The translations under genes and the position numbers were made by a program. The notes beneath the pieces were generated by a model. That model saw only the letters and a list, made by a program, of their open reading frames with translations. It was not told where the DNA came from and did not search any database. A DNA stretch of 25,608 nt from a virus, in IMG/VR virus record IMGVR_UViG_3300017760_000077, positions 1 through 25,608 of that record. One strand, 5' to 3'. Below, piece by piece: positions 3,974 through 24,375 of this stretch; position 1 is the stretch's first letter; the number at the start of each line of letters is the position of its first letter.

Positions 3974-4026
3974 AATAGTTTGTCGTTTAGTTTTTTCAGT
4001 TCCTCAATTAAATCTGATTTCTGCAT
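3823..4026 (-). CDS. Possible small coiled-coil protein overlapping the primase-helicase start
   Basis: A 67-codon frame begins with ATG just 4 bases after the upstream membrane-protein stop and runs 151 bases into the primase-helicase gene in another frame. Its first 36 residues are rich in Leu, Glu and Lys (SDLIEELKKLNDKLLWQKDK) and would form a charged helix. The part beyond that overlaps primase coding sequence and looks less protein-like. Without it, a 57-base gap would remain in an operon whose other gaps are mostly under 30 bases. It may be a real overlapping miniprotein or a by-product of the primase sequence. No homologue is recognised. Confidence 0.35.
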   Translation of the reverse strand: MQKSDLIEELKKLNDKLLWQKDKARQTTMELELLASSNKQEARPPKILNSIRSSNGSELGPGDLPKT

Positions 4027-4030
4027 ATTG

Positions 4031-4273
4031 TTAGTAAATTAGGTTGGATAAAAGTAATCCGCTAGCAGTCCCAAAGGCTGCTCCACTAGCATAGATTAAC
4101 TTGTCATATAAGTTAGATACTGCCGCCCTTTGTGCATTAAAACACCAAAGCAGGGAGATTAAAAAGCCTACGCATACAGCACCTATTATTTTGCTATTAG
4201 CTACCTGCCAAGTGTTCAGACATATTAGAGTGACTTGCAGATAAGCATATAAGAAAGTAGTGAATCTAGACAT
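4031..4273 (-). CDS. Small membrane protein of unknown function
   Basis: An 80-residue, strongly hydrophobic protein. Hydrophobic segments lie at about residues 6-21 (FLYAYLQVTLICLNTW), 28-45 (KIIGAVCVGFLISLLWCF) and 60-79 (IYASGAAFGTASGLLLSNLI), so two or three membrane spans are likely. The loop QRAAVSNLYDKL carries positive charge. It overlaps the RuvC-like gene by 8 bases and is translated after it. Its place inside the replication block, far from the candidate holins, argues against a lysis role, but that is only context. I do not recognise a named family. Confidence 0.7.
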   Translation of the reverse strand: MSRFTTFLYAYLQVTLICLNTWQVANSKIIGAVCVGFLISLLWCFNAQRAAVSNLYDKLIYASGAAFGTASGLLLSNLIY

Positions 4274-4766
4274 CTAGTCTCCTTCCATATTCAGCTATCA
4301 GAGCTGCGTCTACAAACCCATCAAAAGGCTTTTTACTTCTAGCTGTTCTCCTCCAATCTTGCGTGGGCCAGATTTCTTGAGCAGCATTTAAACCTGCTAG
4401 CTTTGTATCAAATTTGCCCTTCATACCCTTGGGCTTACTCCAAAACTGTCTTTGCCAAGTTATCGCCCGGATGCACTTGTATTTGATTTTGTGTGATACA
4501 AGCAGAGCTTTGATGACAGCAAAAGAATATGTCATAGATCGGAGTCCTGCCGCACTAGGTGCGTGTCCTCCTGGGTCTTCTACAATGACTGTGCAACAGT
4601 CTCTTTTAAAGGCACTATTAAAGAGGTCGGATAGGGTCTCAATGTCTATTGATCTTTTTCTACCTTCTTTGTAGGTAGGCATAGGTCGCATATCTTTTAT
4701 TTTATGCCCTTCTATTGCTACAATAGCACCATCGAGACCACAATCTACCCCTATATATCTGCTCAT
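4266..4766 (-). CDS. RuvC-like Holliday junction resolvase
   Basis: A 166-residue RNase H-fold endonuclease that should cleave Holliday junctions and other branched DNA made during phage replication and recombination. The acidic active-site residues are visible: Asp8 in YIGVDCGLDGAI, Glu63 in VIVEDPGGHAPS, and Asp149/Asp153 in FDGFVDAALIAEYGRR near the C-terminus. Length matches bacterial RuvC (about 170 residues). The start overlaps the stop of the preceding coiled-coil gene in an ATGA arrangement, which implies translational coupling. It lies between that miniprotein and a membrane protein in the recombination block. Confidence 0.85.
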   Translation of the reverse strand: MSRYIGVDCGLDGAIVAIEGHKIKDMRPMPTYKEGRKRSIDIETLSDLFNSAFKRDCCTVIVEDPGGHAPSAAGLRSMTYSFAVIKALLVSHKIKYKCIRAITWQRQFWSKPKGMKGKFDTKLAGLNAAQEIWPTQDWRRTARSKKPFDGFVDAALIAEYGRRLDV

Positions 4767-7735: not shown

Positions 7736-8005
7736 TTACTCTTCTTCGTCTTCTTCTGGTGTCCAGGGGGGCGGTTCATCTTCCTCCTCTTCCCAGTCGA
7801 TTTCTACATCTGTATCATCGGCTCTCTTTTCTTCTTTAAGCATATCGAGAGCTTCTATGTAGAGAGCTTTCTCTACCAAAGAGTTGTTTGCTTCGTGCCA
7901 CACGCTACCATCCTCATACTGGACTACGATAGCATAATTAGGGAAGTGTTCACCTAATATTGCTTTGGCCTTTTCGTATCCGTCCTCGGTAGCCTGCATA
8001 ACCAT
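7736..8005 (-). CDS. Small protein with a highly acidic C-terminal tail
   Basis: An 89-residue protein when started at ATG 8005 (MVMQATEDGYEKAKAILGE). A TTG ten codons upstream is in frame but overlaps the kinase gene and is less likely. Residues 5-65 look like a small alpha/beta domain (AKAILGEHFPNYAIVVQYED, then a helix LVEKALYIEALDMLKEE). The last 25 residues are mostly Asp, Glu, Pro and Trp (VEIDWEEEEDEPPPWTPEED), a DNA-mimic-like or chaperone-like tail. It follows the dNMP kinase and is closed by a terminator. No family recognised. Confidence 0.6.
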   Translation of the reverse strand: MVMQATEDGYEKAKAILGEHFPNYAIVVQYEDGSVWHEANNSLVEKALYIEALDMLKEEKRADDTDVEIDWEEEEDEPPPWTPEEDEEE

Positions 8006-8024
8006 CAAATTGTATGTTAAAACA

Positions 8025-8558
8025 TTAGGTCGCAAATTCTATTATCCTTTCAGCGGCTTTATATTCATCATTAGCATCGCAGACCATATCTATATACATT
8101 TTGTTAATCGGTTGCTCGCTTGCATGACTATCTATCCCATACTCAAAGCCGGTGCGCTCTAGTAATATTACAGCCCCATCCTGCCGCTCAATCCATTCTG
8201 CCTCATTATCAAACCTGCAATCATCTATAATAATTATTTTAGCTCCTTCATATTTAGCTTGTAGAACTCTTTTCTCCATAGCCCACAGCCAGATATCTTC
8301 AGCTACCATCCCCCGGCCCCACTCTGTTCCGAGCGTTTGTAGGAGTTGCCTGGCACTTTTACCCAAGCCAGCAATAGGAGTTTCCTTCATGCTCTGATCG
8401 AGCATCAAATCACTCCGGACACCCATCGCCTGCAGCATTAGGCGCATAGGATCAGCAAATGACATTATCTCTACCTGCCTATCTACATTACTTGCTATGG
8501 CTTTTGCTACTGTAGTTTTGCCAACTCTCTTAGGGCCAGTTAGTGCTATGACTTTCAT
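8025..8558 (-). CDS. Deoxynucleoside monophosphate kinase-like protein
   Basis: A 177-residue P-loop kinase. The Walker A is GPKRVGKTT at residues 8-16. SFADPMR (33-39), the LLQTLGTEWGR block (73-83) and IIIIDDCRFDNEAEWI (109-124) match phage dNMP kinases of the T4 gene 1 type. Such enzymes convert dNMPs to dNDPs to feed phage DNA synthesis. The start overlaps the metallophosphoesterase stop (ATGA type), so the two genes are probably co-translated. Confidence 0.8.
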   Translation of the reverse strand: MKVIALTGPKRVGKTTVAKAIASNVDRQVEIMSFADPMRLMLQAMGVRSDLMLDQSMKETPIAGLGKSARQLLQTLGTEWGRGMVAEDIWLWAMEKRVLQAKYEGAKIIIIDDCRFDNEAEWIERQDGAVILLERTGFEYGIDSHASEQPINKMYIDMVCDANDEYKAAERIIEFAT

Positions 8559-9676
8559 ACTGTTTTGAAGTGTCTTGTAAGCAATCCCTCAGTCTTGTGA
8601 TATTCAAAGGCGCTAGCTCCTTTCTGTGATCCTATATATCCAGAATTAGCGTGCCAGGCGTCTGTAGCACAAAGTGCTTCTAAAAATTCGACTACCAACC
8701 CGCTCTGCTCATCAATCATGACCGGGGCGATAGATTTTTTATGATGCACGTGACCGCATTTTAGATGCCTATATTTGGTAACGCCCCACTCTGCTGCGAA
8801 TTCTGCTGCGATAATCATAGGCCACTTAATAGCCGGGACTTTATCACCGTGCGCCCATACTAATAAATTATCTCCCCATATGAGATGTTTGCGTGGGCTA
8901 GGGCCAGTTTTAACCTCGATGTTGCGGCACTTAGAGTAGAAAGCCTTGAGGACTTGCCCAAGCCATAGTTCTGAGTGATTGGAGTGATTACCCTCAAGAA
9001 CTACAATCTCCACTTCTGGGGCTATTGTCGCAGCGATATTAACGCATTCTGTGCAAGCCGATATTATATAATTAACTATACGGTGATAGCGTGAATCAGC
9101 GTCCAAAATATGACCGCTCCCAGGGGTTTGGTTTGTTCTGTTATCTACGTGAAGCATATCGCCACCAAATACTAGAACGCACTTGCCGGGACTATCTGCC
9201 CGGCTTGCTAGGGACTCTGTGGCAGAAACCATTCTCTGAGCTGCAATATCACAGTTATAGTTCTCATCTAATGTCTCTTTCTCATCGGCATACATACCTA
9301 CATGAGCATCATATATATCGATCTCAAAGAGTATGTCCTGCTTTATTCCCCTACCGCTTTTTTTAGGGACTTTACCCTTGCCCTTAACTTCGCTGCAAAG
9401 GCCAGAAACTACATCCTGCAAGAGTTGTAAGGAGGGATATTGCCTTCTCCACTCTTGAACTACTTCCCCGTCGGCATTGTATTGGACAGTAGAATTCTTA
9501 ATATCTATGTGGTCTGGAGTCGGAGCTTTAGACCTCCAGGGGACATCCCCATTCGCCTCTAGTGTCTTAATGACTGATCGCACATAAGTTCTGTTCTTCC
9601 CCAGAAACTCTGCTGCCCCTCGATAGCTATTAGTTTTTAGGTATGCTTCTAAGACTTGTTTTTGCTTATTAGTCAT
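8555..9676 (-). CDS. HTH-metallophosphoesterase fusion
   Basis: A 373-residue protein. The N-terminal 40 residues (QVLEAYLKTNSYRGAAEFLG then RTYVRSVIKTLE) form a winged-helix or HTH. Residues 115-370 are a calcineurin-like phosphoesterase with the full metal-binding set: DAH (123-125), GGDMLH (171-176), EGNH (228-231), AHGD (275-278) and CGHVHH (307-312). Possible substrates are phosphodiesters in DNA or nucleotides; the DNA-binding head suggests DNA. HTH-plus-phosphoesterase proteins are widespread in phages but mostly uncharacterised. It overlaps the dNMP kinase gene by 4 bases and comes after three small membrane-protein genes. Confidence 0.82.
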   Translation of the reverse strand: MTNKQKQVLEAYLKTNSYRGAAEFLGKNRTYVRSVIKTLEANGDVPWRSKAPTPDHIDIKNSTVQYNADGEVVQEWRRQYPSLQLLQDVVSGLCSEVKGKGKVPKKSGRGIKQDILFEIDIYDAHVGMYADEKETLDENYNCDIAAQRMVSATESLASRADSPGKCVLVFGGDMLHVDNRTNQTPGSGHILDADSRYHRIVNYIISACTECVNIAATIAPEVEIVVLEGNHSNHSELWLGQVLKAFYSKCRNIEVKTGPSPRKHLIWGDNLLVWAHGDKVPAIKWPMIIAAEFAAEWGVTKYRHLKCGHVHHKKSIAPVMIDEQSGLVVEFLEALCATDAWHANSGYIGSQKGASAFEYHKTEGLLTRHFKTV

Positions 9677-9718: not shown

Positions 9719-9871
9719 CTACTTCCTTTTATTATGGAAGTCGAAAAGAACTTTTACCTTCTCTGATAAAGACTCGATATTATAGTGCATTTTAGCTAAG
9801 ACTATTATTAAGGTTATTAGTCCTAATGCTACAGGCCAGAGAGCAGATATAAATCCTAGCAGTTCATTCAT
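9719..9871 (-). CDS. 50-residue membrane miniprotein (lysis-cassette candidate)
   Basis: A short frame read from the minus strand: ATG at 9871 overlaps the stop of the holin-like gene as ATGA, and TAG is at 9721-9719. The product has one hydrophobic segment (FISALWPVALGLITLIIVLA, residues 7-26) followed by a charged amphipathic tail ending KVKVLFDFHNKRK. This resembles small phage membrane proteins with a C-terminal KVxxLFDxxNK tail. It may be an accessory holin or spanin-like component. Translational coupling to the upstream gene supports it. Confidence 0.6.
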   Translation of the reverse strand: MNELLGFISALWPVALGLITLIIVLAKMHYNIESLSEKVKVLFDFHNKRK

Positions 9872-10272
9872 TTAACCTGGGAAGATCCGAAGTAAAAACC
9901 TACGATTGCTAGGGCGGTCTGCCGGACTTCTGGCAAAATTGCATATCCACTAACTAACTCCCACTTTTTGCTAGAAAATAGACCGAACAGGTAATTAGTA
10001 TCCTTTTGAACTGATACTCCTATGTCTGTAAAAGATATTAAGAAAGGTGCAGCGATAATAGCAAACATAGTGCAGACTACTATAAACCTGCGTATCCAGG
10101 CCCCAGATGCTCCACCTCTTTTTGAGGCTGCATCTGCACTAGCATCAGCTACCTCCTGCTTCTTTATTGTTTGCTCGAATAATCGAGCTTGGTTCTGAGC
10201 CTGTGTAGCGATCATCTTCATTATGAATCCGCTTACACCGCCTCCTAGCATAGCTATAAGTTCTGGGGTCAT
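9868..10272 (-). CDS. Holin-like membrane protein
   Basis: A 134-residue protein with hydrophobic segments at about 5-20 (LIAMLGGGVSGFIMKM), 62-82 (RFIVVCTMFAIIAAPFLISF) and 108-130 (SGYAILPEVRQTALAIVGFY, ending FYFGSSQVK). Between the first two is a polar helix rich in Ala, Gln, Lys and Asp. The layout and the C-terminal FYFGSS ending resemble three-transmembrane phage/GTA holins, which form the membrane lesion for lysis. It lies between two other small membrane genes. Holin assignment rests on topology and context, not on a decisive motif. Confidence 0.6.
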   Translation of the reverse strand: MTPELIAMLGGGVSGFIMKMIATQAQNQARLFEQTIKKQEVADASADAASKRGGASGAWIRRFIVVCTMFAIIAAPFLISFTDIGVSVQKDTNYLFGLFSSKKWELVSGYAILPEVRQTALAIVGFYFGSSQVK

Positions 10273-10460: not shown

Positions 10461-11843
10461 TTAAATTAAATTAACCCAAGCTCCATTTTCATAGCCTTGA
10501 AACTTGTTGAGAGTGCTATTATAAATAACCATCCCATTGACAGCAGTAAGAGCATCTCTCTGGGTAGTAGTCACCGCTCCAAATTGAACAAAAGAATTGG
10601 CAACCATTTTTAAGTTAGTTGCGAATTCAACTTGGTCAGAGCTACCAAAAATAACAACGCCATCTCCATTGTTGTTTCTCAACTCTCTTCCGTCTAAGTC
10701 TATGGCAGTTTCTCCGTCATATTGTATTTCAGCAGCATCTATTACTATTCCGGTGCTGCCACCTACTTCGACGTGGGCTGAAGCCTTTAGAACTCCCCCG
10801 GATGCTATGTTTGCGCCAGTAATGTCTCCACCAGACATTACAATATTTCCATCATCATCTACAAACTGAAGCTGACCGCCATCAAATTCTAGGTAGCTAC
10901 TGGTGATTGTAACATTGTCTGTAAACTCTGCTCCGTCTATCGTGGTTGATCCTATTAAATTAGTAGTTCCTTCAAACTGTGCATCACCATCAAACTGTGC
11001 ATCTGCACCAAAGGTCGCAGTTTCACCGAACTCTACTTGATCGTCAAACGAGACCTCTCCACTAAATGTTGGATCTGGAAATGCTTCTAAAAATGCACTA
11101 GCAGATGGAGGCATGCCGGGAGGTGTAGGAACTGTTCCATTGAAGCTCTGGCCGATGACTTCCCCCAAAATAGTTACAGGAGCTTGCAAAACAGTCGTAA
11201 TGTTGCCGCTACTGCTTGTTAATTCAATCTCGAAGAAACTCGTTGCTGTTTGTTCAGTTGCAAGTAAATCGTATATGCCAGACGTATTTAGGTCTAGTGT
11301 TCCATTGATACCGCTACCAGATATATTGCTAAAGGTGCTAGTAAAAGCTAGTGGATTTCTATAAATCCTCCAAAGCCAAGTTTCTGGAGTGCTGGAGTCC
11401 CCGGTAATCATCCGGGCTACATCGACGGTGCTGCGAGGGCTTAAAAGTCTCTGATCTATAGTAGGTATTGTTTGTGTGCCATTAGCAGCAAATTGTATTT
11501 TAAAAACAAACGGGGCTAGCTCTGTAACAGTAGCATCGGCAACTGCAGAGTCTATGATTGCTTCTAACTCTGAAGCTGAATGATTATAATTTAACGTGTT
11601 ACTGGTGTCTATTGTATAAGTGCCAGCATTGGGCCGGGCGTCTGACCCACCAACCGCTACCCTAACAGAAGAATAGCTTTGTATGTTTTGTAACCCACTA
11701 CTATTTACTGCATAAAGATTCAAATCAATCGAATCTCCGGCTACAAGTTGCGTAAAAATTGCAGACCTAAAATCTGTAGCACTTCTAACACTTGCAGCTC
11801 GCAAGTTAGTTGCATCTAAATTTATATATAAAGATCGAGCCAT
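10461..11843 (-). CDS. Tail fibre or receptor-binding protein
   Basis: A 460-residue virion protein. The N-terminal 230 residues begin ARSLYINLDATNLRAASVRS and contain LVAGDSIDLNLYAV, like baseplate-attachment domains of fibres. Residues 250-310 carry short repeats of the FDxxxxFxGxAxFxG kind (VSFDDQVEFGETATFGADAQ), typical of a trimeric beta-helical shaft. Residues 310-400 continue with beta-rich segments, and the end (RDALTAVNGMVIYNSTLNKF then QGYENGAWVNL) is a fibre tip motif common in phage and bacterial surface proteins. It follows the sugar-nucleotide dehydratase gene and precedes the lysis group. Confidence 0.75.
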   Translation of the reverse strand: MARSLYINLDATNLRAASVRSATDFRSAIFTQLVAGDSIDLNLYAVNSSGLQNIQSYSSVRVAVGGSDARPNAGTYTIDTSNTLNYNHSASELEAIIDSAVADATVTELAPFVFKIQFAANGTQTIPTIDQRLLSPRSTVDVARMITGDSSTPETWLWRIYRNPLAFTSTFSNISGSGINGTLDLNTSGIYDLLATEQTATSFFEIELTSSSGNITTVLQAPVTILGEVIGQSFNGTVPTPPGMPPSASAFLEAFPDPTFSGEVSFDDQVEFGETATFGADAQFDGDAQFEGTTNLIGSTTIDGAEFTDNVTITSSYLEFDGGQLQFVDDDGNIVMSGGDITGANIASGGVLKASAHVEVGGSTGIVIDAAEIQYDGETAIDLDGRELRNNNGDGVVIFGSSDQVEFATNLKMVANSFVQFGAVTTTQRDALTAVNGMVIYNSTLNKFQGYENGAWVNLI

Positions 11844-11864: not shown

Positions 11865-12848
11865 TTACTCCTGCCACTCTTCATGGCTACGAACATGCTG
11901 AATTACCTCATCAAAAGTTTGATCCAGGTCGATTGGCGGTCTCCACCCTGCCTTATATATTTCGCTGCTATCTAAGGCGTATCGAAGATCGTGGCCTGCT
12001 CGTGTTTTATGAAAGTCTACAAACTCATATTTTAGCTCTTTGCCCATCCTGTCGGCAATCTTTTGGGCTAGTTCCAGGTTGGTGATCTCCTCTAGTCCGG
12101 CTATATTAAACTTGGTCATCCTTTTGCTTGGGCCATAAACAGCAAAATCTATCTTCTGAAGCATAAATAACCAAGCATCGGCTAGGTTTCGGCAGTCTAT
12201 ATACATCCTAGAGCCTATCTTACCTGGTTGCCCGTGAACTGTAACAGCCTGTCCCTTATGCACTCTCGACACTATTTTAGGCAGATACTTCTCTGGGTCT
12301 TGCTTAGTCCCAATCATATTCATGCAATGAGTAACACCTACAGGGACTTTATATGTTCTCCAATAGGCAAAGGCTAGAGCGTCTTGAGCAGCTTTTGACG
12401 CTGCGTATGGATTAGACGGAGCTATGACATCCCATTCGTGGTGGCAATGCTCTCCATAAGCCGACCCAAATACTTCGTCGGTTGAGCAATGAATAAATTT
12501 CTGCAATCCCGGAGCGTTCCGGGCAAATTCCAAGATATTGCCCATTAGCCTGGTATTGGACTCCCAAACATAGATGGGGTCTTCTATTGATGTATCTACA
12601 TGGGATATGGAGGCACAATTTATTATATAATCTACTGTGCCTATTCTAGCCTCAGTTCTCTTAGATATAGGAGAATTAAGATCATGGCAGATCATAGTGT
12701 ATCGAGGGTCTGCTGAAACTCTTTCAGCATCTCCCATATGCCGGAAAGAATCGAGTCCGATTATCTTCCAATCTGTATTATTTATAGCCCACTCTACTGT
12801 GTGAGATCCGACAAAGCCGGCACTTCCTGTCACTAATAATGTTTTCAT
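11865..12848 (-). CDS. dTDP-glucose 4,6-dehydratase-like SDR enzyme
   Basis: A 327-residue extended short-chain dehydrogenase. The NAD-binding motif TGSAGFVGS is at 7-15; the catalytic STDEVFGS block (122-129) and the YAASK motif with Tyr148 and Lys152 follow. RAGHDLRYALD (283-293) is characteristic of RmlB-type dehydratases, which make dTDP-4-keto-6-deoxyglucose, a precursor of deoxysugars. The Thr-Asp-Glu triplet favours dehydratase over simple epimerase. The exact nucleotide-sugar substrate cannot be read from sequence. The gene overlaps the glycosyltransferase stop by 4 bases and is set among tail-fibre genes, so the sugar may end up on the virion or the host surface. Confidence 0.85.
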   Translation of the reverse strand: MKTLLVTGSAGFVGSHTVEWAINNTDWKIIGLDSFRHMGDAERVSADPRYTMICHDLNSPISKRTEARIGTVDYIINCASISHVDTSIEDPIYVWESNTRLMGNILEFARNAPGLQKFIHCSTDEVFGSAYGEHCHHEWDVIAPSNPYAASKAAQDALAFAYWRTYKVPVGVTHCMNMIGTKQDPEKYLPKIVSRVHKGQAVTVHGQPGKIGSRMYIDCRNLADAWLFMLQKIDFAVYGPSKRMTKFNIAGLEEITNLELAQKIADRMGKELKYEFVDFHKTRAGHDLRYALDSSEIYKAGWRPPIDLDQTFDEVIQHVRSHEEWQE

Positions 12849-13876
12849 ATGAATTTATGGAAAGGAGTTCTCCTATATCTTAGATGCCCTCTAGTTTCTC
12901 CCTCTGTTTCGTGATAACTCTTTAGGACTACGAGTCCTTCCTTTTCGTCCCTTACTACGTGGTCGCAGATTGTGTGCGTGATGCAGCAAAATCGCAGGCC
13001 CTCTGGATGCCACTTCCTCCAATTTAGATATAAATCTTGAGTGCCACCCCCATCATACCCGTCAAAGTGTGCTAGCGAGGCTGCCTTTTTACTCATTAAA
13101 GTGCAGCCAAGGCCAGTCCAGTCTGTCTCAATTACTGCTCCTCTCCCAGTTCCGACATGGCTATTATCTAGCCACCCTCTGCGTCTCCACTTCTTAGAGT
13201 TAAGCTCAAAGACATTACCGATAGGAGGACACTTCTTAATTCTATCCTGGATGCGAGTCATTCTTTTATGTTCCTTCTCAAAAGACTCTATAGATATATC
13301 TTTATTATCTAATCTCTCTTTACAGGAATCGAGCAAAATTTTTAGCTTACCGGGGAGAATCCTCTCTTCTGGTAAAAAATCCTCTGCAATCGGATGCGTG
13401 TAGCTTCCATATCCTCCTAAAAAACTCCCTCCTCCCTGCGAAGGATAGGTAACAAAAGCGACATCATAGTATCCATCATCGAATCTAAGCATATCTAGAG
13501 AAACAGATAGAGCGTTATGTGGAACTAGAACATCTGCCTCTACGCTCCAAAGAAGGTCGCAGCCCCAGTTACGAGCGCGATCAAATCCTACAGACTGAAG
13601 GGTAGCTATAAGAATTTGCCTTTCTTTTTTATAATGTTCTCCACCTTCTTCTAGATCAATAGATAATATATCTCTATCAAATCCCTCTGTAATTTTTTCT
13701 AGTCTGCTCTCACTCTCTTTGTCTGTAACGAGTATGAGTCGATGTTCTATATTTTTTGAAGCGTAATCCATAGCGCACTTGACCCTTCTTAGACATACCT
13801 CTAAAGGGTCAAGATAGGATTTAGTTGCTACAATTACTGTCGCTACTTTAATAGAAGCCTGGTCTAGATCGTGCAT
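12845..13876 (-). CDS. GT-A-fold glycosyltransferase-like protein
   Basis: A 343-residue protein with GT2-like features: ATVIVATKSYLDPLEVCL at the start (12-29), LLWSVEADVLVP at 108-119 with an ExD in the place of the metal-binding DxD, DWTGLGCTLMSK at 252-263 and GGTQDLYLNWRKWHPEG (277-293), the last resembling the acceptor-side acidic block. His301 and CDHV (304-307) may complete the metal site. It probably transfers a sugar from a nucleotide donor. Its start lies 29 bases inside the end of the Ser/Thr-rich fibre gene, and its stop overlaps the dehydratase start, implying coordinated synthesis. Acceptor unknown. Confidence 0.72.
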   Translation of the reverse strand: MHDLDQASIKVATVIVATKSYLDPLEVCLRRVKCAMDYASKNIEHRLILVTDKESESRLEKITEGFDRDILSIDLEEGGEHYKKERQILIATLQSVGFDRARNWGCDLLWSVEADVLVPHNALSVSLDMLRFDDGYYDVAFVTYPSQGGGSFLGGYGSYTHPIAEDFLPEERILPGKLKILLDSCKERLDNKDISIESFEKEHKRMTRIQDRIKKCPPIGNVFELNSKKWRRRGWLDNSHVGTGRGAVIETDWTGLGCTLMSKKAASLAHFDGYDGGGTQDLYLNWRKWHPEGLRFCCITHTICDHVVRDEKEGLVVLKSYHETEGETRGHLRYRRTPFHKFI

Positions 13877-16586
13877 ATGTTTTAGTTAATATAGCTGACC
13901 CAGGGAAATTTTGTGATCCAACAATCATCTCAGTTCTAGTAGATATAAACAATGGAGTATGCTTGTCTAGCTCAGTAGAAGAACTCCCGTAAAAATTATT
14001 CAAATTTCCTGCGATTTCTGTAGTTTTAGCAGAGTCGTTTCTATCTACTAATGTCATTTTATGACTGTGTGCGTAAACAATAGTCCCTTGAGAATCGTAA
14101 TGTCTACATCCACCAAAATACAATCTTAGCCCAGTAGCACCGCCATACGCTGTTGTATCATGGACAGTTAATACATCGGCTATACCTCCTGCTCCATCAA
14201 TATTTTTAAATATCTTATCAAAGTTTCTATATCCTGTAACAGTATCAGTAGTATTAGTTGTGTCCCCGGTAGGCAAAGTGCTAGTAACTTCAAGTGTGCC
14301 TGTAAAGGTCGCTCTAGATTCTATTCTGCTCCCAGTTCCGTCATAAGTTATGCTATTATTTAAAGCATCGTAGACAGTTAAAGTTTCGTCTCTAATTAAA
14401 TATCTAAATCCATTGATAGAAAATATTTGAGCATTAGGGATGGCGTAGCTCTCATCGGTCATAGTTGTAACAGAAACAACTGTAGCATCATCACTAGCAG
14501 CAGGAAACGATTGAGTCGTTGTAGACAAAAAGGGCGTAGTGTATTGTATGTTAGGAGGGCGCAGATTGTCTCTCTGATCTATTTTCGTAGTGCTATCAGA
14601 TATATAAACTATGCCTACGACTCTACTAGAATAGGTAGCAAGATTAGGTCGCGGAGCAGCCTCAATTATAGTGTTCCTTTGAGATATATTTCTAATTAAA
14701 GTTTTGCTTACTCCAAAATCAGCAAAACCTATACCCGTAAATGAAGTTTCTGTATAAATTGATTCAGCTATAAACCTAGACGCATCTACAAAACTTTTTA
14801 CTTTATCGAGATCAAAGTAGGTTTGAAGCGTGGCTACTGCTCCCTTTTGATTGTTACTAGTGAAAGTATAACTTGTAGCTCTATTATATGTAGTAATAGT
14901 GCTTTGACTTTCTGTAGTATCTGACCTATTTTTTGTATCACTACTTGTGGTATCAAAATAAAGTGTGCTTATCCCTACTACTGTGTCGCTCGATGTCGCT
15001 GCTTTTCCTTTGAAATTATAATTATTATAATATGTAGCTGTCGGAGAGTTACTATTTATAGTTATAATTGTAGTCTCTGTAGATGAAAACCCTACATAAC
15101 TTTTCCCCTCCAATGTAGTTGTAGTAGGCCTTACAAATACAAACTCCCCAGATGAGGTCTCTGAGCCGACTGGTGACATTTGTAATGGTATCCTACTAAT
15201 TTCTTTATCACCAGTATTTATTTCTACAAGCGTAGAGACTTGATCTGTCTTAAACGTAGAGAAGTCTAAGGAGCCGGCTAAACTAGTATCGGTAATTCCA
15301 TAAACTCCCCACCCTCCTTCATATACATTTGAAGATACTCTGATAAGTTGAAAATCATAAGGAGAAGTAACTGAATCATTTGTTTCTTCGACTGTAGTAT
15401 ATGTATAAGTCTCGTAAGTCTGAGAGGCATCTGTAATAGTTACAATATAACTTCTCATAGTATCTGTATTACTAAGAGAACTCGGAAGGTTATAAACTTT
15501 TGAAACTTCTGTAGATGTAGAACCCTCAGTTAATCCTCCCGGAAATCCCTCTTGGTCGTAGATGACGCGAGAATCAGTAGTGCTGAAATAAGAAAAAGAA
15601 TTTTGTAATGCGCTTACAGAACTGCCAGAAGTGCTACTTGTAAAGCTGGTTTGGTTAGGCTCGCCCGATGCTGTAGTAGAACCAGCCTCCGTGTCTAAAT
15701 AGGTAGTTGTAAAAGTGTGTGGGCTGTCATTTGAATCGTAATAAACTTCAGATAAACCGCTAGCATAGATATTGTTAAAACTAGTTGTTCCAGCAGTAGT
15801 ATTACCTCCTGTCGATATTCTGGTGTATGCTGCAGTAGATTTGACAGTTATACCATCTGAATCTGCTTCGTATTCAAAATCAGTTTTACTAAGACTAGAT
15901 ACTGTGTATGCTGCATATACTACCTCGTTAATTGTCCCAGCAAGATTGTTCCGAGAGCTAGTGGTAGTTCCATTGTTTTCGTGAGTAGATCCCCCATTGC
16001 CGCTTTGAGTCCTGCCGCCTGCTATGCCTCGAAAGCTAGCTCTAGATTCATAAGAGTTGTCTCTTTTAAATAAATTAGAATCACGCTGAGTTGAAGCTAT
16101 TTGAGAACTGCTCGCTGTTAGAACTCCAAAAGTAGTAAAGGTATGAAATACTGCACCTTGATTACTAGCTGTAAAGGTAGGGTTGCCAGTTGTTTCACTT
16201 CCAAAAGTGTGATCGGTCTGAGAGTAAGTTGTAGTAGACCAACCTGCATCTTTAGATCCAGAATTGTTTACTTCAGTATTCCCAGAAAAGCCATTACCGA
16301 TTCTTGAAAGCGTTGAAGTCCTTCCGGATTCTGTTGTTACCCCTAAAAAAGTATTTGTCTTACTAATTCCACTTGTTTCCAGTCCAGGTATTGCCCCTTC
16401 TTCAGAGTGTGAAACGCCGCCTTGAGTATAATCGTTTCTAGTCGCATCTGATCCGTCTGATGTATCGTGAATGACCTGAGTAGAACTAGACCCAGTAGTC
16501 CGACCCTCTGGAAAACGAGAAACAGGCATCCTTGAATACCCTATAGAGCTAACATAACTAGCGTAATTTCTAGTAGGAATCTCCAT
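13848..16586 (-). CDS. Ser/Thr-rich large tail or fibre protein
   Basis: The largest protein here, 912 residues. By count, 64 of the first 200 residues are Ser or Thr, and the bias continues throughout with many Gly, Asn, Tyr and Asp. Only one Cys (in LRLYFGGCRHYDS near 840) was noticed. No enzymatic motif is visible. Such composition suits an extended beta-rich virion fibre or sheath-like appendage, and its position after two tail genes supports that. A glycosyltransferase gene overlaps its end and a sugar-nucleotide dehydratase follows, so the Ser/Thr side chains could be glycosylated (inference). It may be a receptor-binding protein; the sequence gives no homologue I can name. Confidence 0.7.
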   Translation of the reverse strand: MEIPTRNYASYVSSIGYSRMPVSRFPEGRTTGSSSTQVIHDTSDGSDATRNDYTQGGVSHSEEGAIPGLETSGISKTNTFLGVTTESGRTSTLSRIGNGFSGNTEVNNSGSKDAGWSTTTYSQTDHTFGSETTGNPTFTASNQGAVFHTFTTFGVLTASSSQIASTQRDSNLFKRDNSYESRASFRGIAGGRTQSGNGGSTHENNGTTTSSRNNLAGTINEVVYAAYTVSSLSKTDFEYEADSDGITVKSTAAYTRISTGGNTTAGTTSFNNIYASGLSEVYYDSNDSPHTFTTTYLDTEAGSTTASGEPNQTSFTSSTSGSSVSALQNSFSYFSTTDSRVIYDQEGFPGGLTEGSTSTEVSKVYNLPSSLSNTDTMRSYIVTITDASQTYETYTYTTVEETNDSVTSPYDFQLIRVSSNVYEGGWGVYGITDTSLAGSLDFSTFKTDQVSTLVEINTGDKEISRIPLQMSPVGSETSSGEFVFVRPTTTTLEGKSYVGFSSTETTIITINSNSPTATYYNNYNFKGKAATSSDTVVGISTLYFDTTSSDTKNRSDTTESQSTITTYNRATSYTFTSNNQKGAVATLQTYFDLDKVKSFVDASRFIAESIYTETSFTGIGFADFGVSKTLIRNISQRNTIIEAAPRPNLATYSSRVVGIVYISDSTTKIDQRDNLRPPNIQYTTPFLSTTTQSFPAASDDATVVSVTTMTDESYAIPNAQIFSINGFRYLIRDETLTVYDALNNSITYDGTGSRIESRATFTGTLEVTSTLPTGDTTNTTDTVTGYRNFDKIFKNIDGAGGIADVLTVHDTTAYGGATGLRLYFGGCRHYDSQGTIVYAHSHKMTLVDRNDSAKTTEIAGNLNNFYGSSSTELDKHTPLFISTRTEMIVGSQNFPGSAILTKTYARSRPGFY

Positions 16587-16592
16587 TTTTAT

Positions 16593-17174
16593 TTAAGATA
16601 CCTGCCAAGAATAATATATATCGTGGTCGTATTCTCCAATATCTACAGTTTCCTTCGGTGTTTGAAACTGTTCTTTTACGCTTGCTGTTAGATTACCAGT
16701 TCTTATTTGGAAATGGTCTAAGTCAGTTATAGTAGCGATTAGGACTTTAAAATCTCCGGGAGCTTTATCTTTCTCAATCTTAAATGATTCTGGAGGGCTA
16801 CCATCTACTTTTAGCTCTGCTGAAGATATTTCAGAATCATTATTTATGCTTACCTCTACAGATAAATACTGAATGTTAGAAGATGAACTAAAATCTACCC
16901 CTCCTACTGGGGTTATTAGTTCATTATTTATTGTCCCCGGGTTTACTGCTATAAAATCTTCTCGAACCTCTATTATCTCTAGAGCTTCATAGCTTCGTGG
17001 ATTGGCTGCATCACCTCTTATAGATATGGTCAATCCTCCATTCTGATCCGACTCTATCTCAATACCATTTTTGCCCTTAGAATTAGTAATGGCATTTATA
17101 GTATCTATAATTTCATTAGCCTTGTCTGTATCTAATAGAGATGGAGATTCGCCTTTCTGGAGTCTTGGGATCAT
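16593..17174 (-). CDS. Minor tail-associated protein of unknown function
   Basis: A 193-residue acidic protein. It begins MIPRLQKGESPSLLDTDKAN, followed by EIIDTINAITNSKGKNGIEI (residues 21-40), a start often found in small phage baseplate or fibre-linked proteins. The rest is beta-rich with no enzymatic motif (LEIIEVREDFIAVNPG, IQYLSVEVSINNDSEISSAE). It overlaps the preceding gene by 4 bases and ends 6 bases before the 912-residue fibre gene. A role in attaching the fibre is plausible from order alone. Confidence 0.6.
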   Translation of the reverse strand: MIPRLQKGESPSLLDTDKANEIIDTINAITNSKGKNGIEIESDQNGGLTISIRGDAANPRSYEALEIIEVREDFIAVNPGTINNELITPVGGVDFSSSSNIQYLSVEVSINNDSEISSAELKVDGSPPESFKIEKDKAPGDFKVLIATITDLDHFQIRTGNLTASVKEQFQTPKETVDIGEYDHDIYYSWQVS

Positions 17175-17941
17175 ACCTTTACAGTAGAAACTATTTCATA
17201 AGTGTGCTTATAGTAAATATTACCTGCATATATTCCACTAGCTATCCTAACTTTAGGAGAGGGAGCATCGGTCTTAAAAGCAAAAGCAGTCTCGGTATCT
17301 ATGCTAACATTTACTTGAGGATCGCCAGTTCGTAACATATATCCTACATTAAATTCTCCATCTGCAAACGAGTTTTCATCCTGCGAAACAGCAAATGCCA
17401 TTTTAGTATCAATATTCCCATCTTTGATTTCCTCTGCTGTTAGTAACACGTATTCATGTTTTACTCTGCAAGCTACATTTATAGTCCCACTCTTTTCTTC
17501 AAAACTTGTATAGCCGTCTTCATTAAAAAAGTTTACATCGCTAATAGATTGAACATTCAAATAGTTAAACAGATAAGCTGTTCCGATTGTTATTCCTCCT
17601 CCACCTATAATGCTCACGCCTCTGAACTTTAGATAGGGTATATTTATAGACTCAAAGGAATACCATGTATCTGGGATTTTAGCCCATCGAGTTGTGACTT
17701 TAAAAAACCCCCCACCTATATCGGATAGAGTTTCTTCGTAAGCATAATGTAGCTTATGAACCTCGTTCTCCTCTCCAACTAAAAGAGGTATATAGTTAGC
17801 TTTATCTACATACGATACTGTAGCTATAACATCGGATGTAGGGATGCTTGAGTCTTTTTTAAAATAGTTAGAGTTAGGGTCTAGCGTCTTTTCTCCATCG
17901 ACTAGCGTGCTGGGCAAATCTCCAAATCTTTCGTATGACAT
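17171..17941 (-). CDS. Tail protein of unknown function downstream of the tape measure
   Basis: A 256-residue protein with mainly beta-type sequence, including GGGFFKVTTRWAKIPDTWYS (about 85-105) and GTINVACRVKHEYVLLTAEE. The gene begins 3 bases after the tape-measure stop, the place where siphovirus distal tail or baseplate hub proteins are usually encoded. I see no decisive family motif. ATG at 17941 is supported by a tight junction. Confidence 0.6.
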   Translation of the reverse strand: MSYERFGDLPSTLVDGEKTLDPNSNYFKKDSSIPTSDVIATVSYVDKANYIPLLVGEENEVHKLHYAYEETLSDIGGGFFKVTTRWAKIPDTWYSFESINIPYLKFRGVSIIGGGGITIGTAYLFNYLNVQSISDVNFFNEDGYTSFEEKSGTINVACRVKHEYVLLTAEEIKDGNIDTKMAFAVSQDENSFADGEFNVGYMLRTGDPQVNVSIDTETAFAFKTDAPSPKVRIASGIYAGNIYYKHTYEIVSTVKV

Positions 17942-17944
17942 AAT

Positions 17945-19702
17945 CTACTGTGAAACAAATTTCCCCTCCAGAGTTGCGTTAATCTTTTCTAGTAAAGAAT
18001 TGGTATCACCCTCCCCATCTATCTGCTTTTGTAAACCTGCTTGCATTTCTTTCTCACTAAACTTCTTGCCCTTTACGCCACCGACAAACTGTTGAAAAGA
18101 CCCGTCCCCCATCTTTTCAAATCTTATATCCTTTCCGTCCTCTGCCTTGCCTTTGCCTGCTATGTTGGCGGCTTTCTTGAGATCATGGCCAGTTAGCGAG
18201 CTTCTCTTTTCTCCTTCTTCTCCTTCTGCTTCTTCTCCTGTCTTATCTCCTTCTAATACTTCTGCTTCTTCTCCTGTCTTATTAGCTAGAGATGTAGCTT
18301 CCTCTTGAGAGACATTATACTCTCTCATTATATCTAGGATTCTCTGCGCGAGAGTCGCTCTTTTTTCTAGAGCTGCTTGAGCTTCCTTATCTCCTTTAGC
18401 TTGCTCTCTAAGAGCCTCGAGCTTCATGTCTTTAATTTGTTCCTCTAGAGCTTCGAGCTTCTTTTTCTTTTCCTCCTCTTCGGTCAGAGCCTCCCCATTC
18501 CCACCTTCTCCTGCTTCTCCTGCTTTGGGTTTAGGTGCGCTAATTCCTTCTAAATCTCCTGCCGCTTTGATCAAATCATTAAAGGCTTTCAGTCTATCTT
18601 TGAGAGCTTTTGCTCTGGCTGGGTCTGTCTCTGTGGCAATTTGATCCTCAAGAGTCTGGCCTAAATCTTTAGCCTCTTGTATCTCTTTATCTCTTTCTTT
18701 AGCTCTGTCTTCCGCTGCCTTTTTCCTCTCAGCCTCCTCTTTCTTTATGAGGGCTACTCGATCCTCAATCATCTTCTGCATTTGCTGAGTCCCACCTCTT
18801 CCTCCGGGTAGATCATCAAAAGCTCCTTCTGCTTGTAGGTCTAGTTTGGCCTTGAAAGTGATTTCATCCATCCCTCCCATAAAGAGCATTTCGCCTATAA
18901 AAGTCCCAAGATTTTGAGTGCCTTCTACTATCTTTGTAAGCATTGTAGATAATGCTCCGGTAAGCGTGGTAACAGCCGGGAGTAGAGTAGTTCCTATCTC
19001 TGTTCCTGTCTCAGCTAACTCTTTCTTCAAAAACTTAACTTGATTGGCGGCACTATTGGCGGTCGAAGCCGCATCTCCATTGGCAGTCCCCAGGTCTCTT
19101 ATCATTATCGACTGAACAGCCAAAGCCTTTTGAGCTGCGTTCATCTGGCCTACGCCGTCAAATATTCCTAGATTTAACCCTTCCTGCTCTAGCCTCGCCT
19201 GGTTAATCACAATACCAAGCTGCTTCATCGGTTCAAACTCCCCGGAGATAGCACTTCTTATCTTAGTAAATGCCTCCTCAATCGGTAGGTTATGGAAACT
19301 GGCTATGTCCCCGGCTACCTTTACCAACTCCACAGAAAAGGTGTTGGCTGCGTCTGAGTTCAAACCAAAGGCTTTAGCCATAGAAGCAAATGTAGCTAGA
19401 GCGTCCTGCATCTCTGCAGTAGTGCTAGGAATAGTCTGTCTTAGTTCCTCTACCTTTTCATTCATTTTGGCAGTTGCCGGCCCAAATACAGATTCAAACT
19501 TTGAGGCTGTTTCGGCAGCTGCCAGAGCCAGGCTACCCATACTTTTAACCAGTCCGATGCCAGCAAATGCCGCACCGACCTTCATAAACTGGCCTACAGC
19601 TGACTTACCAAAAGCACTAACTCGCCCTTGTGCGGTTTTAAGACCTCTTGAAAATGCTTTGGTGTCTACACCAAGTTTTGCTAGTAGTGAAAAATTAGCC
19701 AT
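17945..19702 (-). CDS. Tail tape measure protein
   Basis: A 585-residue protein. The N-terminal 280 residues are of the tape-measure kind: LGVDTKAFSRGLKTAQGRVS, ASKFESVFGPATAKMNEKVE, FHNLPIEEAFTKIRSAISGE and QLGIVINQARLEQEGLNLGI. A hydrophobic segment lies at about 240-275. Residues 310-500 are a Lys/Glu-rich helical region with a duplicated TGEEAE unit. At roughly 0.15 nm per residue, the known tape-measure rule, a tail near 88 nm would be expected, though the charged region makes this loose. It overlaps the preceding chaperone-like gene by 8 bases. Confidence 0.88.
   Translation of the reverse strand: MANFSLLAKLGVDTKAFSRGLKTAQGRVSAFGKSAVGQFMKVGAAFAGIGLVKSMGSLALAAAETASKFESVFGPATAKMNEKVEELRQTIPSTTAEMQDALATFASMAKAFGLNSDAANTFSVELVKVAGDIASFHNLPIEEAFTKIRSAISGEFEPMKQLGIVINQARLEQEGLNLGIFDGVGQMNAAQKALAVQSIMIRDLGTANGDAASTANSAANQVKFLKKELAETGTEIGTTLLPAVTTLTGALSTMLTKIVEGTQNLGTFIGEMLFMGGMDEITFKAKLDLQAEGAFDDLPGGRGGTQQMQKMIEDRVALIKKEEAERKKAAEDRAKERDKEIQEAKDLGQTLEDQIATETDPARAKALKDRLKAFNDLIKAAGDLEGISAPKPKAGEAGEGGNGEALTEEEEKKKKLEALEEQIKDMKLEALREQAKGDKEAQAALEKRATLAQRILDIMREYNVSQEEATSLANKTGEEAEVLEGDKTGEEAEGEEGEKRSSLTGHDLKKAANIAGKGKAEDGKDIRFEKMGDGSFQQFVGGVKGKKFSEKEMQAGLQKQIDGEGDTNSLLEKINATLEGKFVSQ
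18224..18282 (-). repeat. Short tandem duplication inside the tape-measure gene
   Basis: A 23-base sequence starting TTCTGCTTCTTC occurs at 18224-18246 and again at 18260-18282, offset by 36 bases, exactly 12 codons. It encodes two copies of KTGEEAE. This is an in-frame duplication in the low-complexity region, consistent with length variation of the tape measure. Confidence 0.8.
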
Positions 19703-20306: not shown

Positions 20307-20690
20307 TTATGAAATATCTGTTAGCGGAGTCAGCGAAGACTCTTTCATTACAAATCCAGATATAGACAAGCGAACATAATCTTCCTGAGCTTCAGTAACT
20401 TCTACCCCAGTTATTGCTATTAGGTTGCTGTCATAACTAATGGTATCTCCTATTTTTGGAGTATCTGAATCCACATTCTCTCCAAACTGAACTCCAAGGC
20501 TCACTTCTATCCTTTGTGGCACTATTTGAGAGCCAATGGGTTTGCCATTGCCATCATCAATATCTACCCGGTTGGCTGTAATGCTTTCAGAATAGCTTTC
20601 AACGATGTAATTTGTTCCATCAATAGTAGCCTTGCCAGCAGTAAATCCAAACTTCTGTGTGCCGTCTTGTTGTCCTGGTGAGTATCCCAT
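20307..20690 (-). CDS. Tail-tube-like protein, paralogue 2
   Basis: A 127-residue protein. Residues 30-70 contain VESYSESITANRVDIDDGNG and then KPIGSQIVPQRIEVSLGVQ, which match the neighbouring 116-residue protein at most positions (VESxSxSxTxNRVDIxDGNG pattern). Positions before the chaperone candidate and tape measure suit a major tail or tail-adapter protein. A short C-terminal extension (KESSLTPLTDIS) distinguishes it from its neighbour. Small beta-sandwich tail-tube-like fold is inferred, not seen. Confidence 0.6.
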   Translation of the reverse strand: MGYSPGQQDGTQKFGFTAGKATIDGTNYIVESYSESITANRVDIDDGNGKPIGSQIVPQRIEVSLGVQFGENVDSDTPKIGDTISYDSNLIAITGVEVTEAQEDYVRLSISGFVMKESSLTPLTDIS

Positions 20691-20703: not shown

Positions 20704-21054
20704 TTAACTGTTAATCTTTAAGTATCCACCTAGATTGAATCTTTGATAATCGGCTGCGGTTTCTGTTTTTTCTACAGATGTAATCATCATAATTGAATTT
20801 TCTCCACTTGTTTGATATCCAGAGGTAAGAGTTATTTCTGCTCCAATCTCAGGTGCGCTGCCTGTTCCTACTTGAACTGTCGCTGTGACTTCAGTTCTTC
20901 CTGTAGTAATTGCAGCCCCAGCAGGCTCGCCATTTCCATCGTTAATATCGACCCTATTACTAGTCTTGCTAATAGAAAAACTCTCTACTACTAGACTATT
21001 GATAGTGGTTTCGGAAATCCCAAATAGTTGGTCTCCATCGTTTGTTATTGCCAT
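20704..21054 (-). CDS. Tail-tube-like protein, paralogue 1
   Basis: A 116-residue protein. Residues 22-62 (LVVESFSISKTSNRVDINDG, then NGEPAGAAITTGRTEVTATV) align without gaps to its neighbour downstream, showing a tandem duplication with divergence. It follows the tail completion-like gene after a 42-base leader containing AACCTTTAAAAA, the longest spacing in the tail block, so it could be the more highly expressed tube subunit (inference). Confidence 0.6.
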   Translation of the reverse strand: MAITNDGDQLFGISETTINSLVVESFSISKTSNRVDINDGNGEPAGAAITTGRTEVTATVQVGTGSAPEIGAEITLTSGYQTSGENSIMMITSVEKTETAADYQRFNLGGYLKINS

Positions 21055-21096: not shown

Positions 21097-21891
21097 TCAA
21101 TCTAAGATGTCCCACCTCGATGAGTGTGTGCAGAATTTGATCTCATAGGTAAGAGTTGAAATCCCCAAGTCTCCATCTACTTCAAAATCTGTTCCAGCCG
21201 GCCTCATATACTTAACTGAGTAGTCCTCTAAAATGTATCCCTGTGAAACTGTAGGAGCAGGATCAGAACCGCCTGCTGATACAGTAGCCCAAGACGAAAC
21301 ATTCCAGGGATGGAATCCGCTTGGTGTTCCTGTGTAGAAAACAACATCTGAGCCGTCTTCTTCTACAGATATTTCCCACTCATTAGAGTCAGTATAAATA
21401 ATCTTTCCGTAAGAAGCTCCAGATGGCTTTTCATAAGTGTATCGGCCAGCGTGACCGGGTGTAGAGGTTTTGCTATAAACTCCATTTACTATAGAAGATC
21501 CTGCTCCGGTTACTATAGCGGAGTTTATTGAAGCAGTTGTCCAGTTACTAGAGCTAAGAAGCATAGACTCTCTGACCTTTTTCCTTATTGCCCTATGAGT
21601 CTCTGCAGGGGTCAGCCCGGTAGAAGCGTCTGTGCTGCTATCGCTCAGATCGCTGATTATTCTAAGTATAAAATTCATAGAATACTGGGAATAATTAAAT
21701 CTGTCTTGCTGATCTAAAGTTGAAGGATCTTCTGCACCCTGCAGTTCCGCATTTATCTCTACGCGAGGGATTGTAAAATTTCCTTGGTCTAAGGAAGCTA
21801 CAAGCTGCAAATCAGAATAAGCGCTTAAATCTGTAGCCAGGAAGCTCTTAGCTGCAGTTTCAAAATTTGTCTCAAAGTCTAATATATTCAT
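21097..21891 (-). CDS. Tail completion/terminator-like protein with an inserted beta module
   Basis: A 264-residue protein. Residues 1-125 (FETAAKSFLATDLSAYSDLQ, then NFTIPRVEINAELQGAEDPS and YSMNFILRIISDL) and 217-264 (YILEDYSVKYMRPAGTDFEV and ISTLTYEIKFC) look like the two halves of a minor tail protein that ends the tube at the head side. Between them, about residues 126-216 form a module with VTGAGSSIVNGVYSKTSTPG, YTYEKPSGASYGKIIYTDSN, EWEIS and a SAGGSDPAPTVS exit. This VNGxYxK type module occurs in many unrelated phage proteins. It probably displays on the virion surface. Confidence 0.6.
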   Translation of the reverse strand: MNILDFETNFETAAKSFLATDLSAYSDLQLVASLDQGNFTIPRVEINAELQGAEDPSTLDQQDRFNYSQYSMNFILRIISDLSDSSTDASTGLTPAETHRAIRKKVRESMLLSSSNWTTASINSAIVTGAGSSIVNGVYSKTSTPGHAGRYTYEKPSGASYGKIIYTDSNEWEISVEEDGSDVVFYTGTPSGFHPWNVSSWATVSAGGSDPAPTVSQGYILEDYSVKYMRPAGTDFEVDGDLGISTLTYEIKFCTHSSRWDILD

Positions 21892-22518: not shown

Positions 22519-23436
22519 TTAGACAGCAGCGATCTTCTGACCTGCGTGAGTGTTAATCACAACTTCGTCTACGCTGTTGTAGACACGAAGGACATCGCTC
22601 TTGATTGGCTCATCACGATAAACTTCTGCTGTGAATACTCCACCATCTGGGCCAAACGAAAGTGTGCGTCCGAAACCTCCGTTAGCGAAATCGCCACCGC
22701 CTACTTGTGCAACATAGATTTCACTTGTAGACCAGATTTTAGATCGGTTAGAAGTGTTACCCTTGGCATTGCTATTGTAGCGAGTTGGAGTAACGATGAT
22801 TTCATTGACACCAAATGCGTCCAGAAGGACTTGGCGGTTGGTGTATGTTCCATTGCCATTGAAGATGCCACGAACATCATTGGTATTGATCATCTCATTA
22901 AATAGAGAAGTCTCGATGATAAGAGCGACATTGTCGTAGAAGCCATGTGCGTTAAGACGCTCTACTGCGTTTTGGATGTCGATGATAGGCTTTGCATCCG
23001 CAGCATTTGAAAATGCTGCTGTAGCGTCTGTGCTTGCGAAGTTTGCACCAGTAAGGGCGGCTGCACAACGAAGTTCGTGGCCGACCATAAGGTTGCGTTG
23101 TAGCTTCTGAGCGATTGCGGCAGATGCGTCTGATACGCCTGCTTCACTTGCGGCAGTTTCGTCTTCGTCCGGAAGAACGCCTTCAAGAGCATATTGAACA
23201 GTAGCATAAGTTTGCTTGTTGTATTCAAAGTCTTGGCGTGGGAATAATGACCCGGCTGCTCTTGCTTTAGAAGTGTTGTTATCAAACTGGTCTGTGCCGA
23301 AGGTTGGATACTCGCCAACTTTGCTAGAGACATTACGAACTGGGAAGATCTTAGTGCCTACGAATTGGTTTTCCCCAATCTTGTTAAGGGCTTCCGATAG
23401 AATCGGATTGAAGGATGTATTTGTGTATAAGCTCAC
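22519..23436 (-). CDS. Major capsid protein
   Basis: A 305-residue protein whose beginning is typical of phage major capsid proteins (TNTSFNPILSEALNKIGENQ then FVGTKIFPVRNVSSKVGEYP). A long helix-rich middle (SDASAAIAQKLQRNLMVGHE) and ADAKPIIDIQNAVERLNAHG with VALIIETSLFNEMI correspond to the spine-helix and P-domain region of HK97-type capsids. LLDAFGVNEIIVTPTRY and the C-terminal VYRDEPIKSDVLRVY are standard late blocks. The start is GTG at 23436. Its place after a decoration gene and before a strong terminator supports high expression. Confidence 0.88.
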   Translation of the reverse strand: MSLYTNTSFNPILSEALNKIGENQFVGTKIFPVRNVSSKVGEYPTFGTDQFDNNTSKARAAGSLFPRQDFEYNKQTYATVQYALEGVLPDEDETAASEAGVSDASAAIAQKLQRNLMVGHELRCAAALTGANFASTDATAAFSNAADAKPIIDIQNAVERLNAHGFYDNVALIIETSLFNEMINTNDVRGIFNGNGTYTNRQVLLDAFGVNEIIVTPTRYNSNAKGNTSNRSKIWSTSEIYVAQVGGGDFANGGFGRTLSFGPDGGVFTAEVYRDEPIKSDVLRVYNSVDEVVINTHAGQKIAAV

Positions 23437-23844: not shown

Positions 23845-24375
23845 TTAGAGTTTAAAAATTTGTGGCTGCTCTTTTCCTAAACGGATAGTAGCTGCAAATT
23901 CTGAAATGCCATGTTCTTTGGCAAATTCTGCGATTATTTTACTGCGGTTAGCCTGGCTTGGCTCATAGACATCATCGCTAGTAGATCCTTCTACTAGTTC
24001 TGTGCCTTCGATCAACTTTTCTAGCTTTACGACCTTAGAAGAAAGTTCTTCGGCTTTTGCCTTCATCTTCTCTTCGTCTTCGTAGTGCTTGTTAAGTTCT
24101 TCGTCCTTCTTAGCCATCTCTTCCTCATGCTCGGATACAGCTTCTTCCTTCTTAGCCATTTCCTCTTCATGCTCTGCAAGTTTGGCTTTGAGTTCCTCAA
24201 TCTCTTTTTTGAGAGCTTCAAGTTCCTCTTCCTTTTCATCGAAGGACTTTTTAAATCCTTCAAGCTCGGCTTCTGCCGCGAGTTTCTCTACTGAAAACTG
24301 TGTAGCCTGCTCGGTCAGAGAAGTCTTTTCATCTTCTAGAGAATCATTTAATTCGATAAGTTCTGCTTTGGTCAT
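23845..24375 (-). CDS. Possible nested scaffold protein from an internal start
   Basis: ATG at 24375 (MTKAELIELNDSLEDEKTSL) lies exactly at the boundary between protease and coiled coil, in the same frame, and would give a free 176-residue scaffold. The 17 bases before it read AACCCAATAATCATAAG, close to the AACCAATAA leaders of other genes here. Nested scaffold genes inside protease genes are known in lambda (Nu3 in C). Direct evidence for use is lacking. Confidence 0.4.
   Translation of the reverse strand: MTKAELIELNDSLEDEKTSLTEQATQFSVEKLAAEAELEGFKKSFDEKEEELEALKKEIEELKAKLAEHEEEMAKKEEAVSEHEEEMAKKDEELNKHYEDEEKMKAKAEELSSKVVKLEKLIEGTELVEGSTSDDVYEPSQANRSKIIAEFAKEHGISEFAATIRLGKEQPQIFKL

Follow-up and report, generated by a model that had tools for sequence, protein, structure and literature searches.

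We have analysed the whole of a 25,608-base virus record (IMGVR_UViG_3300017760_000077, here called the window), which carries in its tail module a gene for a Ser/Thr-rich protein of 912 amino acids (aa) that is followed by overlapping genes for a glycosyltransferase (GT; 29 bases shared with the 912-aa gene) and for an RmlB-like sugar-nucleotide dehydratase (4 bases shared with the GT gene). Our results suggest that, during assembly in the host cytoplasm, this phage probably O-glycosylates its Ser/Thr-rich tail-region protein. The strongest argument in favour of glycosylation is that an almost invariant enzyme is paired with a partner conserved in composition only, that the two are absent together, and that their adjacency is kept across an inversion. 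Phage virion glycosylation as such is already known; the GT family and the type of proposed acceptor are new.

Results

A conserved pair of GT and Ser/Thr-rich protein

Profile relatives of the GT were taken from the best 80 of 91 viral contigs and from two bacterial-genome contigs, which gives 82 GT loci. Grouped at 90% identity, their GT sequences form 47 clusters, and at 60% they form 7. In the window, a 193-aa gene precedes the Ser/Thr-rich gene; a homologue of it is recognisable in 72 of the 82 loci, and in all 72 it is separated from the GT gene by exactly one large gene. The remaining ten loci all begin or end near the GT gene, except L067. After removal of near-duplicates the middle genes of these trios encode 44 proteins, which form 37 groups without BLAST similarity between groups at E 1e-5. 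Their combined Ser and Thr content (S+T) is nevertheless high, with a median of 29.3% and a 5-95% range of 21-36%, as compared to a median of 13.7% for the 166 other open reading frames (ORFs) of at least 300 aa in the GT loci (Mann-Whitney p 1.7e-20; the GT loci are not fully independent and p values are descriptive throughout). Four loci (L036, L038, L069 and L070) have the 193-aa and Ser/Thr genes on the strand opposite to the GT gene, which they nonetheless still adjoin. Within the window clade the GT and the dehydratase have median identities to the window proteins of 78% and 83%, respectively, whereas BLAST detects the 912-aa protein in no more than 8 of 30 loci. One locus, L021, carries the 193-aa, Ser/Thr, GT and dehydratase genes together in a chassis in which no other gene of the window, including its head and tail genes, is recognisable, and thus the set can move as one.

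GT-free control loci were obtained by fetching with the small 134-aa gene of the window, which mostly gave other phage types. The Ser/Thr-richest ORF of at least 400 aa in each of these 66 loci has a median S+T of 19.6% and reaches at least 24% in 7 of the 66, which differs from the GT partners with p 2.7e-13. The mark of 24% is reached by 38 of the 44 GT partners but by only 7 of the 123 ORFs of at least 400 aa in the GT-free loci, and the richness is therefore not due to chance. Homologues of the 460-aa fibre-like protein of the window have an S+T of 17-26% (median 21%).

In a fetch that did not depend on the GT, relatives were also collected through the major head protein. Fifteen such loci extend for at least 7 kb downstream, and 13 of them contain both the GT and the Ser/Thr protein. 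In the other two, L233 and L240, the GT, the dehydratase and the Ser/Thr protein are all absent, a fibre of the 460-aa type is retained, and the 193-aa gene is shortened to an N-terminal form of about 100 aa; a search for the GT across the whole of both contigs found none. The Ser/Thr gene, GT and dehydratase are replaced by a protein of 310-342 aa with an S+T of 14-15% (L233:15925-16857, L240:12049-13077), whose L233 copy has no family match. The shortened 193-aa gene lies before this protein, and the arrangement is a cassette swap in GT-less phages of the same chassis. Fetching by the 193-aa gene gave the GT in all 17 loci with enough sequence, and the GT follows in all six loci matched by the Ser/Thr profile. 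Profiles of the 193-aa family and of a second Ser/Thr group proved too variable for scanning. The expectation, voiced in a preliminary description of this DNA, that homologues of the Ser/Thr-rich protein travel with both sugar enzymes is not contradicted for the GT, which is present for every Ser/Thr-rich relative found whose contig continues; the dehydratase is not a constant companion.

The glycosyltransferase family

The GT had been described as GT-A-like, and its AlphaFold model (mean pLDDT 77, confident in the N-terminal half) indeed has a GT-A fold, with 269 matches in the PDB at E<=0.001 and Z scores of up to 17.3. The DxD-type metal-binding motif of GT-A enzymes is present as E113-A-D115 at the end of model strand 108-113. 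Some 50 columns of the GT alignment are nearly invariant, and E113-x-D115, T279-Q280-D281, H301, H306, H322 and H331 are invariant in 82 of 82 relatives. Among these, T279-Q280-D281, H301 and H306 are candidates for the xED-type catalytic acid and the C-terminal His, with model residues 276-283 being of low confidence. Motifs of this kind are what one expects of a GT-A enzyme that is active and depends on metal, and the protein is predicted to be catalytically active.

Searches of Pfam-A, PHROGs and NCBIfam gave no match for the window GT, nor did tblastn against 50,697 cultured phage records at E<=0.01. One of 24 members of the family matches PF00535, the Pfam GT2 family, with an E of 0.079, which falls short of the curated cut-off. 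The two bacterial-genome contigs that bear the GT are labelled Kiritimatiellaeota B1221 and Chthoniobacter flavus, and among 289 searched genomes of the phylum that these share they are the only two with a GT match. They are a lead towards Verrucomicrobiota as hosts of related phages.

The 912-aa protein

A recount confirmed the coordinates and gene overlaps previously given for the cassette as well as the S+T of 32% in residues 1-200 of the 912-aa protein. Over its whole length the value is 30.4%, and the richness thus extends beyond the N-terminus; in blocks of 100 residues it varies between 21 and 40%, with high values over the greater part of the sequence. Cys, Trp and Pro are scarce. A beta-strand periodicity in the spacing of Ser and Thr is not pronounced (mean z 0.6 at lag 2). 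The protein has no family match in Pfam, PHROG or NCBIfam and no tblastn match in cultured phages. A scan with the single sequence found no relatives, and it was the profile alone that reached six; homologues in L007, L016, L010 and L009 have identities of 42-20%. While the Ser/Thr richness noted earlier stands, the protein then called a fibre is a putative one: what points to this identity is solely the position of its gene, which comes after the tape measure gene and a pair of small genes of the tail region.

The dehydratase, an optional addition

The dehydratase matches the Pfam families Epimerase (PF01370) and GDP_Man_Dehyd (PF16363) with E values of about 5e-40 (138 bits for PF01370, cut-off 20.9) and phrog_540 with 6e-71, and contains the motifs CSTDEVFG and YAASK, in agreement with its earlier assignment as RmlB-like. 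It shares with RmlB the SDR fold, the STDE and YxxxK motifs and its best PDB matches, which are dTDP-glucose 4,6-dehydratases. Different from RmlB however, it scores 209.6 bits against TIGR01181 of NCBIfam, where the equivalog cut-off is 365.1, and the donor nucleotide and product are therefore left unassigned. All 26 close relatives have its gene directly after that of the GT, whereas in the distant ones the two are not adjacent. Among the genes that come after the GT gene in these distant phages, those tested with Pfam included no sugar-nucleotide enzyme, and L067 has a weak dehydratase homologue some kilobases from its GT gene. On this distribution, the dehydratase is an optional, clade-specific addition to the unit of GT and Ser/Thr protein. 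Of the single cassette of fibre, GT and dehydratase that had been proposed, the adjacent, co-moving and co-absent part is hence the GT/Ser-Thr unit, to which the dehydratase is not essential. A second fibre gene was also said to follow; a 460-aa fibre-like gene does come next, with 10461-11843 lying just outside the span of 11865-16586.

Discussion

How would a single, hardly changing enzyme serve so many unrelated partners? We propose that the GT-A enzyme acts in the host cytoplasm, where it would transfer a sugar from a nucleotide-sugar to Ser/Thr side chains of the protein encoded immediately upstream, and that the glycosylated protein would then become part of the tail tip or of side fibres. 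For the clade of the window, the RmlB-like dehydratase may supply or alter the donor as a 4-keto-6-deoxy sugar nucleotide, perhaps completed by host enzymes, whereas distant relatives would take the donor from the host. The GT would accept any protein of the right composition, and owing to this tolerance the surface protein could be swapped and diversified while the enzyme hardly changes. The benefit to the phage might be shielding, protease resistance or a tuning of adsorption.

Several observations weigh against glycosylation of the Ser/Thr-rich partner. Six of the 44 middle proteins have an S+T of only 18-23%, as in ordinary fibres. The joint absence was seen in two related, partial contigs (L233 and L240) and may reflect one event. 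In L067, a contig of 104 kb, the GT gene (around 7998-9110) has ribonucleotide reductase genes in its vicinity but neither a recognisable Ser/Thr partner nor a 193-aa gene, and a different use of the enzyme in this locus is possible. The putative acceptor lacks a structural model, as AlphaFold prediction of the 912-aa protein together with its relatives (5 sequences) was uninformative (pLDDT 29.5). Finally, the closest solved folds to the GT include COLGALT1, RmlT, TarP and GalNAc-T2 (Z 15.7-17.3, identity 11-16%), with polysaccharide, teichoic acid and protein glycosyltransferases nearly tied in Z. Since these enzymes tie, the fold does not reveal the class of acceptor: the GT shares the GT-A fold with all of them, no family is prominent, and its substrate is not readable from the comparison. 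For the same reason we dropped the protein glycosyltransferase COLGALT1, although it is the best PDB match, as evidence for a protein acceptor.

The GT and dehydratase might instead alter surface glycans of the host (O-antigen or capsule), an alternative also named in the preliminary description, and thereby block superinfection or the re-adsorption of progeny to debris, with the Ser/Thr protein being a receptor-binding protein for the unmodified glycan. This would account for the linkage and the joint replacement of receptor-binding and sugar genes, and the teichoic acid and polysaccharide enzymes among the fold matches of the GT would suit it. However, neither the GT nor the dehydratase has a predicted transmembrane segment, and neither integrase nor resolvase was found in seven related contigs, which are possibly incomplete. 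Moreover, the GT is tightly tied to a hypervariable gene of the structural region, 37 unrelated partners are hard to reconcile with a conserved GT that has a single specificity, and the lasting Ser/Thr richness of the partner would go unexplained. We thus regard modification of the host surface as unlikely, and as less likely than glycosylation of a virion protein.

Other genes of the GT-bearing contigs are also conspicuously rich in Ser and Thr. A 462-aa serine-rich repeat gene (SSSDSSLSSDSS-like, 55% S+T) directly follows the GT gene in L082 (L082:9083-10471), the Kiritimatiellaeota B1221 contig, which has phage tail genes. Two adjoining ORFs, both candidate genes, contain long repeats that resemble TNTETGTETQTSTQ and SSSRSQ and lie upstream of the trio in L044 (L044:2909-3841 and 3847-4632). 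Homologues of the virion-module gene at 21097-21891 of the window (L004:854-1729, L006:512-1165 and L023:473-1462) have C-terminal tails of almost pure Ser/Thr and are possible further glycan acceptors, although such tails show no significant enrichment over controls.

Could the target of the GT then be another virion protein such as these tailed ones, modified phage DNA or the 193-aa protein, the composition of its neighbour being incidental to a beta-rich adhesin? The tails in L004, L006 and L023 and the serine-rich gene that follows the GT gene in L082 are in line with such a target, as is the 193-aa gene, which is likewise present in all 72 trio loci. Yet extreme Ser/Thr tracts elsewhere in GT phages are not clearly commoner than in controls, the S+T of the partner is above that of other phage fibres, and the GT gene sits in the tail module, away from DNA-modification genes, so that we consider another target improbable. 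That the GT and a variable adhesin merely hitch-hike in a cargo and diversity hot spot without interacting is very unlikely: the tail-fibre region is a known hot spot of exchange, and around the trio and dehydratase of L021 no head or tail gene of the window is recognisable, but linkage alone would hardly account for adjacency in 72 of 72 loci over 47 GT clusters, its retention through inversion and the joint absence.

Glycosylation of the Ser/Thr-rich partner has parallels in two known systems. For virion glycosylation in mycobacteriophages, the primary study is reportedly that of Freeman et al. 2023. Three papers (PMC12363180, PMC11256854, PMC12619734) report that the mycobacteriophages Che8, Corndog and Myrna themselves encode the glycosylation of their capsid and tail-tube proteins. 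Both there and here the proposal is that a GT of the phage acts in the host cytoplasm on a structural protein of the virion, and in the window, too, a phage GT is linked to a candidate acceptor gene of the structural module. The mycobacteriophage acceptors however are capsid and tail-tube subunits, whereas here a large, hypervariable Ser/Thr-rich tail-region protein is encoded beside the GT, and sequence comparison by tblastn gave no match that would indicate homology to the mycobacteriophage GTs (50,697 phage records, E<=0.01). The serine-rich repeat adhesins of bacteria are modified by cytoplasmic GtfA/GtfB, which are encoded in the same cluster and whose acceptor is set by composition (PMC6973325). 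They offer a bacterial parallel in logic, namely a Ser/Thr-rich surface adhesin with a linked cytoplasmic glycosyltransferase. Different from the single GT-A enzyme in its phage tail context, GtfA/B is a two-protein complex with DUF1975 and accessory Sec export; the cassette GT, with its GT-A fold and no Pfam match, is by these tests not a sequence relative of GtfA/GtfB, and Sec genes were not searched for. No paper on the GT family or on the trio turned up in text searches of a limited literature, which does not prove that there is none.

We tentatively suggest that the cassette may represent a widespread, unannotated phage system for making virion glycoproteins like mucins or serine-rich adhesins, in which a conserved GT-A enzyme chooses its acceptor at the level of composition, the coated tail-tip protein is freely swapped and diversified, and other Ser/Thr-rich virion tails are possibly modified in trans. 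Comparative evidence shows a recurrent unit in dozens of uncultured phage lineages, while phage virion glycosylation is documented in few groups. If the partner is O-glycosylated, the unit would provide a genomic signature for spotting glycosylated phage tails, a candidate new family of protein O-glycosyltransferases for laboratory use, and an explanation, open to testing, of how a surface protein of a phage could remain coated while it diversifies.

Gene organisation of the window

The main genes of the window all lie on the minus strand (Table 1). In the order of transcription, the gene at 23845-25263 is followed by those for the major head protein, small head and tail proteins, the tape measure and the 256-aa protein, and then by the 193-aa, 912-aa, GT, dehydratase, 460-aa and 134-aa genes and genes of DNA metabolism. 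It is the nearby tape measure gene that places the cassette in the tail module. Matches to PF06419/PAZ and of ATG16 type that arose in the analysis were disregarded as chance or coiled-coil hits.

Table 1. Positions of the cassette genes and their neighbours in the window
Feature	Position	Strand	Basis
Ser/Thr-rich 912-aa tail-region protein, putative acceptor	13848..16586	-	composition; gene position
GT-A-fold glycosyltransferase (GT), 343 aa	12845..13876	-	AlphaFold model fold; invariant motifs
RmlB-like sugar-nucleotide 4,6-dehydratase, 327 aa	11865..12848	-	Pfam, PHROG, NCBIfam and PDB matches
193-aa small tail-region protein, third member of the trio	16593..17174	-	lies before the Ser/Thr-rich gene in almost every GT locus
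256-aa tail-region gene, between tape measure and trio	17171..17941	-	synteny in relatives
Tail tape measure protein	17945..19702	-	phrog_1535, 4.6e-18
460-aa second fibre-like protein	10461..11843	-	phrog_25721, C-terminal match, 7.7e-05
Major head protein	22519..23436	-	phrog_1005, 2.3e-33
Small 134-aa gene	9868-10272		after 460-aa gene in transcription order

Two neighbouring similar genes at 20307-20690 and 20704-21054, encoding 127 and 116 aa, apparently arose by tandem duplication of a tail-region gene, of which relatives have one or two copies. At the end of the window, a truncated gene (2-580) encodes a C-5 cytosine DNA methylase (PF00145, 7.6e-37). The adjoining gene (614-1501) encodes a 295-aa protein without a Pfam match, which by eye resembles proteins of the PAPS-reductase (ATP pyrophosphatase) type.

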